Shown in pieces: positions 25,162 to 38,196 of a stretch of DNA of 60,751 bases. The position numbers and the translations under genes were made by a program. This DNA comes from Elusimicrobiota bacterium. GTDB lineage: Bacteria > Elusimicrobiota > Elusimicrobia > UBA1565 > UBA9628. The notes under the pieces are model-generated. The model ran no database searches. It saw only the letters and a program-made list of their open reading frames with translations, and was not told where the DNA came from. Within the stretch, counting starts at the first letter, position 1, and every line of letters starts with the position of its first letter. The stretch is from assembly GCA_027327915.1 (NCBI GenBank), contig DAHVWT010000004.1, forward strand, positions 1 to 60,751, written 5' to 3'.

Positions 25162-25229
25162 GAATGCTACGGATGGCGCCGGTTGGCGAACAAAGGCAGC
25201 GGGAAAGCAGCCTCCCAAAGGGATTTTTC

Positions 25230-25267
25230 GCAATCCGCGGCTTTCCGCGGCAATCCGCGGCTTTCCG
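25230..25267. repeat. 20-bp tandem repeat, two copies
   Basis: GCAATCCGCGGCTTTCCG occurs at 25230-25247 and exactly again at 25250-25267, a 20-bp period, each copy holding the palindrome CCGCGG. It fills the short gap between the methyltransferase stop and priA on the minus strand. It may be a local duplication or an operator-like direct repeat. Confidence 0.7.
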
Positions 25268-25273
25268 TAGCGA

Positions 25274-25894
25274 TCATTTGTACGCCGTCATGACGAAATG
25301 AGGAGGGATGTTGCGCACTTCCCATTCGATGTTCGTCTTCCGGAAGTATTTCTTAAGGAGAGGGACGAGATGGAGCGTGATCTGATAGGCGACGAAGCGG
25401 CCGCCGGGCCTGAGCAGCGCGGCCGTCTTTCCCAGCAACTCCTCGCGGCTCGATGAGGGAAGGAAGGCGAAGGGGAGCCCGGAGACGACGGCGTCGACGG
25501 AGGAAAAAACCTCCTCCCTCGCGATCCGGTCGACCTGGCGCGCGTCGCCGATGCGCAGCGCCACGCGGGGGTCGTGCATGCGCCGGGAGAGCGCGGCGAA
25601 GAGATTTGGATTCATTTCGATCGTGAGCAGCCGTCCATTCTTGGACATGCGCCGCAGGATCTGATGAGTGACGACCCCTGCCCCGGGGCCATATTCAACA
25701 ACGCGGCGGGCCCCCTCGACCGCGGCCGCGCGCATGATGCGGCCAACCAAGTAGCGGCTGCTGGGGGTAATCGCCGCGATCGCCTTATCGCCCCAAAAAT
25801 ATTTGAGATACGAGAAAAGCCCGTTGTCATTCGCCGCGGCGCTCTCCCTTTCATCGCGCCGCGGTCGAGACGGGAAAGAGGGATCGGGGTTCAT
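25274..25894 (-). CDS. SAM-dependent methyltransferase, PmtA/KsgA-like
   Basis: 206 residues from ATG 25894. A class I methyltransferase fold begins with SSRYLVGRIM and the SAM-binding motif VVEYGPGAGVVTHQIL; then LLTIEMNP (motif II), GDARQVD and the motif IV-like VSGLPFAFLP. The pattern YGPGxGVVT with SGLPF is typical of phospholipid N-methyltransferases (PmtA) and relatives of rRNA adenine dimethylases. PmtA-like phosphatidylethanolamine methylation is plausible but not provable here. The start overlaps the uracil-DNA glycosylase stop by ATGA. Confidence 0.78.
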   Translation of the reverse strand: MNPDPSFPSRPRRDERESAAANDNGLFSYLKYFWGDKAIAAITPSSRYLVGRIMRAAAVEGARRVVEYGPGAGVVTHQILRRMSKNGRLLTIEMNPNLFAALSRRMHDPRVALRIGDARQVDRIAREEVFSSVDAVVSGLPFAFLPSSSREELLGKTAALLRPGGRFVAYQITLHLVPLLKKYFRKTNIEWEVRNIPPHFVMTAYK

Positions 25895-35369: not shown

Positions 35370-36191
35370 ATGAACGACGAAGCCCGAGTTGACTCCGATT
35401 CGTCCAACGGCAAGGCTCCCGCTCCGGCTGTTGACGTCGGCAGGGAGCTGCGCAAGGCTCGCGAGAAGCGCGGCGAAACCCTCGAGGTCCTGAGCAAACG
35501 ATCCCGCATTCCGCTTAAATATCTGAAGGCCCTGGAGAGCAACCGTCCCGACGCCTTTCCCGCGAGAAGCTACCTCCGAGGCTTCCTTGAAGGCTACTGC
35601 CGCGAAATTGACGCGGATTTCGAATCGCTTTGGAATGCCCTGCAGCAATCCGAGAAATCTCAGGAGTCGCAGCGCCCCCAGGCGCCGCAACGCCACGGAC
35701 GCGGCGTGCCCGAATGGCTCTGGCCCGCCATCCTCGGAGGCGCCGCCTTTCTCGCCGCCATAGGGATCGCTTTCTGGCTCGCGAGGAACCGCCCCTCCGC
35801 GCCGCCGCGGCAAGTCCCGCCTCCCGCGCCTGCCGCGGCGCAGACTCCTGTCTTAAAGCCGGCGCCTCCCGACGTGAAGTCGCCGGCAGTCGCGAAGGCG
35901 CCGCCAGCCAATGCGCCCGCGGGAAAGCTCCCGCATCTCAACCACGCCATCATTGAGTTCAGTCAGGATGCCTGGGCCAGCATCGCGGCTGACGGAATCA
36001 CCCATTTCGAGGGGCGCGTCCCTAAAGGCAAGGAGCAGCGATGGAAGTTCAAGAAGTCGCTGGCATTCAAGCTGAGCTCCCCGAACGCCATTCAATTGCG
36101 CATCAATGATAAATTGGCGCCGCTCCCTCCTCCGGACCCGGACGGCACTTACCGCGTTTACGCGGCGACGGCCGCGGCGCGTCATCCGTGA
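35370..36191 (+). CDS. rodZ: RodZ-like cell-shape protein
   Basis: 273 residues. An N-terminal Cro/CI-like helix-turn-helix (VGRELRKAREKRGETLEVLSKRS, about 24-90), one membrane segment (about 116-137), a Pro/Ala linker and a C-terminal periplasmic beta domain (DUF4115, about 185-265) match RodZ, which couples MreB to the wall elongation machinery. AGGAG at 35359-35363 is a good ribosome binding site 6 nt before the ATG. The gene ends in a GTGA overlap with pgsA, a frequent rodZ-pgsA pairing. Confidence 0.9.
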   Translation: MNDEARVDSDSSNGKAPAPAVDVGRELRKAREKRGETLEVLSKRSRIPLKYLKALESNRPDAFPARSYLRGFLEGYCREIDADFESLWNALQQSEKSQESQRPQAPQRHGRGVPEWLWPAILGGAAFLAAIGIAFWLARNRPSAPPRQVPPPAPAAAQTPVLKPAPPDVKSPAVAKAPPANAPAGKLPHLNHAIIEFSQDAWASIAADGITHFEGRVPKGKEQRWKFKKSLAFKLSSPNAIQLRINDKLAPLPPPDPDGTYRVYAATAAARHP

Positions 36192-36760
36192 ACGTCGCCA
36201 ACCAGATCACTGTCGGCCGCATCGTGCTCGCCCTCGGCGTCGTCTGGTCTCTTTTAAACCCCGGACTCGGCTGGCACGAAATCGCCCTCTTCCTTTTTCT
36301 TCTCGCCATTCTGACGGACGCCGCCGACGGCTACCTGGCGAGGCATCTTCACCGCGAAAGCCCCTTCGGCAAGGTGGCGGACCCTATCGCAGACAAGCTC
36401 CTCGTCCTTGGGACTCTTATCGCGCTTGCCAAGCACCGCACGCTGCATATACCGCTCTGGGGCGTCGTTTTGATGCTCGTGCGCGAGTTTCTGGTCGCCG
36501 GACTGCGGATCTTGGCAAGCGCTCAACAAGGCCGCATCATAGCGGCCCAGACTTGGGGAAAGCAAACCATGGCGATTCAGAGCGTCTGCGTCCTCGCCAT
36601 ACTCGCGATTCTCATCATCGCCGAGAGCGTGCGCTCGGCCCCGGCCTGGCTTCATGCCCTGCCTTACGCGCTCACTCTCACCGCAGCCTTGAGCGCGTGG
36701 TATTCCGGCTTTCTCTATTTTCGGGAATCGAGGCACTGGCTGGAAAAATCCTGGGAATGA
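36188..36760 (+). CDS. pgsA: CDP-diacylglycerol--glycerol-3-phosphate phosphatidyltransferase
   Basis: 190 residues, about five membrane segments. The CDP-alcohol phosphotransferase motif DGxxARx8Gx3Dx3D is complete between D63 and D84 (DGYLAR...GKVADPIAD). It makes phosphatidylglycerol phosphate, the first committed step to PG and cardiolipin. Start GTG at 36188 overlapping rodZ. A cardiolipin- or PS-synthase of the same superfamily is possible, but length and neighbour favour PgsA. Confidence 0.93.
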   Translation: MNVANQITVGRIVLALGVVWSLLNPGLGWHEIALFLFLLAILTDAADGYLARHLHRESPFGKVADPIADKLLVLGTLIALAKHRTLHIPLWGVVLMLVREFLVAGLRILASAQQGRIIAAQTWGKQTMAIQSVCVLAILAILIIAESVRSAPAWLHALPYALTLTAALSAWYSGFLYFRESRHWLEKSWE

Positions 36761-36834
36761 CGCCGACCGGCCCGCGCGCAACGGAATGCCGCGAGGAGCG
36801 AAGCAAGGCAGAAGGAGGCCAAGGAAGCCGGAGG

Positions 36835-38196
36835 ATGGCAACGGGCGTCCCTTGTCCTCAGTCGCCTGCCGCAGCTCTTCGCAGCCTTCTGTTGCCTTCC
36901 GTTGTTTTCTGTTGCCTTCTGTTGCCTTCCGTTGCTTTTATCAAGGCCGCCGCCCAATCCTTCCCTACGGGAGGCTTTCACCGCCCGATGATGCCCGGCG
37001 CGCCGACCTCCCAGCCCCAGGCTCCGAAGCCCCCGGCCTCGGCCCCGGCCAAGGCCCCCGAGGCCTCCACGGCTCCCGTCTCGGTTGCCGCACTCATCGG
37101 CAATTCGACCGAAATACCCCTGGAGGAGGGGCCGTGGGTCCTCGGAAAGGTCGTCCTCAGCATCCAAGGCCGGGTCGTCGACAATCCCGCCTGGCGGGAG
37201 CTTGTGCGGGGGGAAAAAGGGATTCTCTACACCAAATCAGACATCCTCTACGATGTCGATGCCCTCATGGGCACCAAGCAGTTCGCCGCCGTCACCCCCA
37301 GGCTCTTTGCGATGCCAAAGGAACGCGTCCCCAAAGATTTCTTCGGGCTCGTTTCTTCTAATTCCGAGGTCCTATTGGTCTATCGCCTCACTCCGCAAGG
37401 AGGCCTGCCCACCGCGTCGATGGGAACCCTCGCAGGCGGACCCCGGAAGCCTCTCAACGTTTCGGGGCTCATCCTGACGCCGACCGCTTGGCGGGGCACC
37501 GGCTATTACACGGACCCGGGTCTCAGCCTCGATATCAACGCTGTGTATCTGATCGGGCGGCTCTACGGCAGGAACTCCTTCTCCGATGTCACCCCTCACA
37601 CGAACTACCTCGACCAATTGGGGGTATGGCTTCTCACGGCGGATGGAAAGATGCAGGTCGCCAAGGAAGAGCGCTACACTCCCGCGACCTCCTTTGGCGT
37701 GCAGGCGACGGCCCTTCTTCGGCAAACGCCCCAACCGCAAGCCGGGTCTGCCGCCGGCACCAGTTTCAGCGTTAACGCCAACCCCAACAGCCAGTTTCTC
37801 ACCGACTACTACGGCGTCGTCAGCAAAAAAATAGGTCCCGTCCGTTCCAGCCTTGGTTTGATGGAAGGCGATTTCGGGGACGCCGTGTCGCAGTTCTCGG
37901 AATTTCTGAACCCCCAGAATCTTGCGTTTGAAGGAATCCCCGGCGGCGCGGAGGTCAAGAGCAACACCATGCCCTTCGCGAACATCTTCTTCACGCCGAA
38001 ACCCGAGCATCAGCTGGGAGTCGAGGCGATCAAGTTCAACGGCGCTCTGCTTGACCCCTGGCTCATCGACCTTAAGGCCGGATACTTCCTCAAGCTCGAT
38101 TTCAACATCGGCTATCTGCACTTCAACGGCGGCTACGACGTCCTGGGCCTCATCCAGTTCCGCTATACGCTCTACCCGCGGCTGGGCCCCCTTTAG
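36835..38196 (+). CDS. Predicted outer-membrane protein with POTRA-like N-domain
   Basis: 453 residues, no family recognised. The ATG at 36835 is preceded by GGAG. The signal peptide core (LLLPSVVFCCLLLPSVAF) is encoded by tandem decamers; cleavage is likely near KAAAQ. After a Pro/Ala-rich stretch, residues ~90-190 (GPWVLGKVVLSIQGRVVDNP, ILYDVDALMGTKQFAAVTPRLF) resemble a single POTRA fold as in BamA/TpsB. The rest alternates short hydrophobic and polar stretches with aromatic residues, ending FRYTLYPRLGPL, as in beta-barrels. It lies downstream of pgsA after 74 nt. The POTRA and barrel reading is by eye only. Confidence 0.7.
   Translation: MATGVPCPQSPAAALRSLLLPSVVFCCLLLPSVAFIKAAAQSFPTGGFHRPMMPGAPTSQPQAPKPPASAPAKAPEASTAPVSVAALIGNSTEIPLEEGPWVLGKVVLSIQGRVVDNPAWRELVRGEKGILYTKSDILYDVDALMGTKQFAAVTPRLFAMPKERVPKDFFGLVSSNSEVLLVYRLTPQGGLPTASMGTLAGGPRKPLNVSGLILTPTAWRGTGYYTDPGLSLDINAVYLIGRLYGRNSFSDVTPHTNYLDQLGVWLLTADGKMQVAKEERYTPATSFGVQATALLRQTPQPQAGSAAGTSFSVNANPNSQFLTDYYGVVSKKIGPVRSSLGLMEGDFGDAVSQFSEFLNPQNLAFEGIPGGAEVKSNTMPFANIFFTPKPEHQLGVEAIKFNGALLDPWLIDLKAGYFLKLDFNIGYLHFNGGYDVLGLIQFRYTLYPRLGPL
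36885..36940 (+). repeat. 10-bp tandem repeat inside signal-peptide codons
   Basis: Units of the form GTTGCCTTCY begin at 36891, 36901, 36911, 36921 and 36931, with a partial unit before. The second unit reads GTTGTTTTCT and the last degenerates to GTTGCTTTTA. Because ten is not a multiple of three, the protein repeat has a 30-nt period (LLLPSVVFCC/LLLPSVAFIK), and gain or loss of one unit would shift the frame. Confidence 0.85.

Follow-up and report, generated by a model that had tools for sequence, protein, structure and literature searches.

A dispersed palindrome of ten-base units, probably used as signal-peptide codons at many genes of an Elusimicrobiota bacterium

Why should a ten-base tandem repeat lie within the signal-peptide codons of a bacterial gene? 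The question is raised by a 60,751-nucleotide stretch of DNA from an Elusimicrobiota bacterium (assembly GCA_027327915.1, contig DAHVWT010000004.1; the window hereafter), in which an array of ten-base units, or decamers, sits near the 5' end of a gene for an exported protein. Tandem Repeats Finder (TRF) places the array at 36884-36935, with period 10, 5.2 copies and 83% matches. Five in-register units of the form CTTCYGTTGY (GCCTTCTGTTGCCTT, GCCTTCCGTTGTTTT, GTTTTCTGTTGCCTT, GCCTTCTGTTGCCTT and GCCTTCCGTTGCTTT, at spacings of 10, 10, 10 and 10) occupy 36884-36940, and their in-frame reading, LLLPSVVFCCLLLPSVAF, would form the hydrophobic core of a signal peptide, as an earlier note on this DNA had recognised. 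That note went on to propose that slippage by one unit may switch an outer-membrane protein on and off. We favour a different account: judged from its sequence, the array forms one arm of an element from a dispersed palindromic family, unlike a gene-specific contingency tract, and it is likely that the genus uses this palindromic repeat as signal-peptide codons at many genes.

The window region matches 24 places in its own genome by BLAST, and pattern searches found many more, a minus-strand array often being followed by a plus-strand array within 50-100 base pairs (bp). A position weight matrix (PWM) trained on the first stretches read, which yielded the unit YTTCYGNNGC, matched abundantly in the genome and almost never in a first-order Markov control. 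As a mirror repeat (GCCTTCCG is identical when read backwards), the decamer makes a reversed pattern invalid as a null, and the Markov control was used in its place. Within the 652 kb that we read, stretches of the genome mostly picked for carrying matches, there are 58 elements, of which 37 are two-armed and span 74-168 bp; the purine-rich arm precedes the pyrimidine-rich arm in all 37 ('-+'), and the opposite order ('+-') never occurs. Across 295 genomes of the phylum, a strict two-unit pattern is found 63 times in this genome (G000), 41 times in G131, a member of another, distant family of the same class, 7 times in the congener G001 and 0-6 times in the others. The plan of the element would be (GCNNCRGAAR)n, a loop and (YTTCYGNNGC)n, built of mirror-symmetric 10-bp units, small and non-autonomous in appearance. 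Many-copy dispersal and an inverted-repeat architecture of ~100-200 bp, two traits of a small dispersed palindromic repeat such as a miniature inverted-repeat transposable element (MITE), a Rickettsia palindromic element (RPE) or an RU repeat, are both found here.

Where these elements lie suggests what they are used for. They stand at gene junctions, in this genus and in the distant family of G131 alike, usually beginning within ~15 bp of the upstream stop codon, and the next gene starts inside the element or just after it. For the cytosolic proteins Obg, RecQ, EutN, PriA and GlmS (the last recognised from its MCGIIGYVG start) the downstream start is beyond the element. Many exported proteins have their start at the edge of the element, often as an ATGA shared with the upstream stop codon, and an open frame runs from it across both arms into a c-region that resembles a cleavage site or a lipobox; MATEGHGGLRRATEGHGRRLSVAFHGLLLPSMAFCGLLLLLPARRAGG, from the OmpH/Skp family, and MNAAEGNGRLQRATEGHGPSLSVSFWGLLLLLTGC, from a lipoprotein, are examples of such N-termini. 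Before many exported proteins the element would thus have become the first 30-60 codons, its purine arm encoding a positively charged n-region and its pyrimidine arm a hydrophobic h-region. By a simple hydrophobicity and cleavage rule, a signal peptide or lipobox is encoded by 21 of the 32 two-armed elements that have a start close downstream, as against 98 of 537 genes in the background (Fisher p 2e-8); counting membrane proteins raises the background to 157 of 537 (p 4e-5). Independent evidence of export comes from Pfam searches with the part of each protein that follows the element, which identified OmpH/Skp, SBP_bac_5, a PPIC rotamase (peptidyl-prolyl isomerase, PPIase), an LptA-like protein, SpoIID twice and, weakly, PorV. 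From these sequence features we infer that the element-encoded peptides work as signal peptides. Two exported ankyrin-repeat proteins (L077:11098-12759 and L111:5890-7123), one of them a lipoprotein that carries a caspase-like C14 domain, have element-encoded signal peptides here and less so in a congener.

What would suit a repeat of this kind to such a role? Three 10-bp units make 30 nucleotides, so every frame of an array gives the same ten residues, cyclically shifted. The unit CTTCTGTTGC yields LLLPSVAFCC, which is hydrophobic, and its complement ATEGNRRQQK, with a net charge of +2, all frames being free of stops. Because each frame of the pyrimidine arm is hydrophobic and each frame of the purine arm positively charged, any reading makes an n-region plus an h-region, and a palindrome of such units gives charged and then hydrophobic residues from either side. 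About 2.3% of random GC-matched decamers share this pair of properties, which is therefore uncommon, not extraordinary. The ten-base periodicity would make the cassette frame-independent and hence easy to co-opt. Position 5 of the unit bears on its use, as C there gives Pro or Arg and T gives Leu or Cys: in translated elements the T:C ratio is 43:68 in the pyrimidine arm and 17:79 in the opposite arm (p 0.001), and in untranslated elements the arms show no such difference (8:30 vs 7:23). A shift confined to the translated pyrimidine arm is the mark to be expected if selection had favoured a hydrophobic h-region. A bolder reading, possible but less likely than not, is that the family acts as a frame-independent signal-peptide cassette: a palindrome that spreads, that could supply a signal peptide or take the place of an old one at whatever gene junction it lands, and that has remodelled a large part of the genus's exported proteome.

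Comparison between species shows the elements changing while the reading frames of translated copies are mostly kept. Two congeners were found in a contig scan (L069, at 94% identity, and L070, at 77-79%), and at the window gene both are 63 nucleotides shorter than the window, with the frame preserved in all three species. Orthologous junctions in G001 include shared elements that differ in length and several junctions that are empty or reduced. The nonzero differences at translated junctions are 63, 132, 21, 18, 57, 15, 33 and 48 nucleotides, all multiples of three, together with two exceptions (40 and -28) that accompany moved start codons, and 8 of 10 differences divisible by three would arise by chance with p 0.003. 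Untranslated junctions differ by 94, 85 and 11, as well as by multiples of three. The element-less junctions of G001 show gain or loss, but on inspection without a clean target duplication. Two opposed decamer arms stand ~300 bp apart at L073:9523-9947 (contig C98 of G000); the DNA that they enclose is missing from G001, a difference of 404 bp, which gives the impression of an insertion into the loop.

The distant relative G131 presents another side of the family. Its common unit, TTTCCGTAGC, has a stop in each 30-nucleotide cycle, and its elements are almost never translated, a lipoprotein being the one clear exception. At L242:5583-5757 and L238:6504-6701 one arm consists of ~8-10 near-identical decamers and the other has the usual number of units, which points to asymmetric tandem growth; these arrays would be better candidates for slippage than the one in the window. 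Exact many-unit arrays in G131 show that arms can grow by 10-bp steps, and tandem duplication is the probable route of arm growth. Very similar copies of 120-130 bp with a common loop (AAGTAAGA...TCTTACTTTC), at L246, L251, L253, L248 and L238:8249-8369, suggest recent copying of the whole element.

Several points weigh against signal-peptide use as we propose it. Signal peptides were called by a home-made hydrophobicity and cleavage rule and by eye, and the rule scanned 60 residues in element genes vs 35 in the background, so that the enrichment before exported genes is somewhat overstated. Gene starts were taken from a simple codon-usage caller, and the window gene itself has two candidate starts, ATG 36757 and ATG 36835, of which we prefer the former. 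The density of elements is biased by the choice of stretches, and neighbouring units of an array are not independent, which makes the p-value of the codon shift optimistic. Finally, with the elements of G131 almost always untranslated, use as signal peptides is no general property of the family.

How else might the array be read? The simple-sequence contingency loci of pathogens are perfect tandem tracts at individual genes, in the 5' parts of genes for surface proteins, with units not divisible by three, and the window array has in common with them a non-triplet unit in a 5' part. The frame logic of the earlier note is sound: ten is not divisible by three, and one unit gained or lost leads into downstream frames whose first stop comes after 16 or 139 codons. 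Array lengths also vary between species, and the nearly perfect many-unit arrays of a related genome imply that units do duplicate. The window array, however, belongs to a dispersed palindrome as one of its arms and is imperfect: its longest exact period-10 match is 13 bases, short of a near-perfect tract, as against 49-73 in two arrays of G131. There are dozens of copies of the element, many of them untranslated, and it encodes the signal peptides of the housekeeping exported proteins Skp/OmpH, an LptA-like protein, a PPIC-type PPIase and a solute-binding protein; in front of such envelope proteins switching off should be costly. Together with the frame kept between species, this makes it very improbable that slippage in unit number at a phase-variable contingency locus turns the outer-membrane protein on and off in individual cells. 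A nearer alternative, which concerns why rather than what and is a sub-reading of the one we prefer, holds that the palindrome is a neutral intergenic one whose read-through is merely tolerated, since nearly any hydrophobic sequence will do in a signal peptide, with neither benefit nor dedicated mechanism. It accords with the untranslated elements before cytosolic genes and in G131, and with gene orientations at elements that are about those of the background (co-directional in 21 of 26 cases in G131, vs 173 of 214 gene pairs). Against it, the hydrophobic codon shift, found only in the translated pyrimidine arm, and the excess before exported genes point to use, although tolerance followed by later polishing would yield the same picture; neutrality seems to us quite possible, if somewhat doubtful.

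The palindromes might instead act in RNA, as transcribed intercistronic hairpins (an RNase III site, or a device for stability or translational coupling) with coding a secondary matter. Their position at gene junctions, often over an ATGA stop-start, would suit this role, but an element's own two arms pair no better than arms taken from separate elements (permutation p 0.83), and the window element, despite its predicted hairpin, folds no better than its dinucleotide shuffles (z -0.52) and has no Rfam match, so that we regard such a device as improbable. On the same results (swapped arms pairing equally well, the fold z and the lack of an Rfam family) a conserved RNA hairpin was rejected. An intrinsic terminator or orientation-dependent element was likewise rejected, as 4 of the 58 elements in this genome lie between convergent genes, vs 42 of 365 gene pairs, and G131 is likewise near background. 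REP/BIME palindromes are linked to Y1 (TnpA_REP) transposases and are not known to serve as signal peptides. Y1 genes occur in element-rich and element-poor genomes alike, and mobilisation by a REP-associated tyrosine transposase (RAYT/REP) was set aside because Y1_Tnp is present in 12 of the 12 genomes tested, whatever their element content.

What, then, does the window element serve? Table 1 gives its coordinates and those of its surroundings. Further upstream of the CDP-alcohol phosphatidyltransferase gene lie helix-turn-helix (HTH)/RodZ and LolA genes. The TGA of the pgsA-like gene (36758-36760) overlaps ATG 36757 as ATGA, in frame with the repeat, an overlap conserved in both congeners; ATG 36835 falls within the segment missing from L069, in which the left arm is reduced in length. 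The frame is open across the array from either start, both being 5' of it, and the hydrophobicity heuristic for this gene was scored from 36835. Homologues of the mature protein occur in 50 of the 57 genomes searched; the more distant of them lack the repeat and have short signal peptides of the ordinary kind. The mature protein has no Pfam match; its structure model, of medium confidence (mean predicted local distance difference test, pLDDT, 68), has an N-terminal domain and a beta-barrel, with long strands within residues 193-410, and its best Foldseek matches are outer-membrane barrels. Sequence matches to Omp85/Toc75 POTRA domains are weak (E 0.009-0.34). The model bears out the earlier note's prediction of an exported, outer-membrane product, in that the protein is probably an outer-membrane beta-barrel, and its family is possibly an undescribed Omp85-like one of the class, with a POTRA-like domain and a small barrel. 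At the second element of the window, the called priA start lies beyond the repeat.

Table 1. Features of the decamer element, the gene that it enters and their neighbours in the window
Feature	Position	Strand	Basis and remarks
Whole palindromic decamer element, two arms and loop	36778..36945 (168 bp)		Opposed arrays in PWM scan; inverted repeats; predicted hairpin
Purine-rich left arm, degenerate GCNNCRGAAR units	36778..36847	-	PWM scan; on the + strand encodes a polar, positively charged, putative n-region
Right-arm array of the element	36856..36945	+	PWM scan
Core of the pyrimidine-rich arm, five CTTCYGTTGY decamers (the repeat of the earlier note)	36884..36940	+	Encodes the putative h-region LLLPSVVFCCLLLPSVAF
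Exported-protein open reading frame	36757..38196	+	Preferred start ATG 36757; alternative in-frame start ATG 36835
Predicted signal peptide, putative cleavage near KAAA/Q	36757..36954	+	Translation and hydrophobicity heuristic
Mature part, conserved family: POTRA-like N-terminal part (weak) and predicted beta-barrel	36955..38196	+	Homologues, structure model, Foldseek
Upstream gene, CDP-alcohol phosphatidyltransferase (pgsA-like)	36188..36760	+	Pfam PF01066, E 1.1e-34; TGA overlaps next ATG
Second family member, one recognised arm, weaker	25222..25281	+	Between priA and a methyltransferase gene

If signal-peptide use is as we propose, one repeat has been turned repeatedly into a protein-targeting signal, at many unrelated genes of one genome, those of envelope biogenesis included, because its 10-bp unit gives the same peptide in all frames and its palindrome reads charged-then-hydrophobic either way. 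The family would then offer a natural experiment on the origin and replacement of signal peptides, and a caution against taking every decamer repeat in a signal peptide for a phase switch.

We found no description of the present family in the literature, and nothing relevant turned up on repeats or palindromes in Elusimicrobiota. REP/BIME palindromes (PMC3733652, PMC12306157) are likewise high-copy and intergenic, but have units of 20-40 bp and fall into GTAG/CGTC-tagged super-families. PARCEL repeats (PMC2996958) are also repeated palindromic coding DNA, of patchy distribution and tied to membrane and lipoprotein repertoires; their units, however, are 75 nucleotides (25 amino acids) long and codon-phased, and encode amphipathic domains inside proteins rather than signal peptides. 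The closest precedents are the Rickettsia palindromic elements and Yersinia RU-2/YPAL. RPEs (PMC2229807) are palindromes of 105-146 bp, dispersed, forming stem-loops and lying in frame within conserved genes; the present elements are likewise translated in frame in host proteins, with 21 element-encoded N-termini and length differences that are mostly multiples of three, and are set apart by unit structure, since RPEs as described have terminal inverted repeats instead of decamer arrays. RU-2/YPAL and RU-1 (ERIC) of enterobacteria (Delihas 2007, PMC2759123; PMC2229807) are small palindromic intergenic repeats that also occur in frame in genes, and in YPO1552 part of the predicted signal peptide comes from RU-2 (PMC2759123, PMC2229807); they differ in having a fixed sequence and few fusions, with neither decamers nor frame-independence, and service to dozens of conserved exported proteins is not described there. 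In-frame mobile palindromes are thus already known, and what sets the present family apart is the decamer unit, its independence of frame and how many conserved exported proteins it appears to serve.
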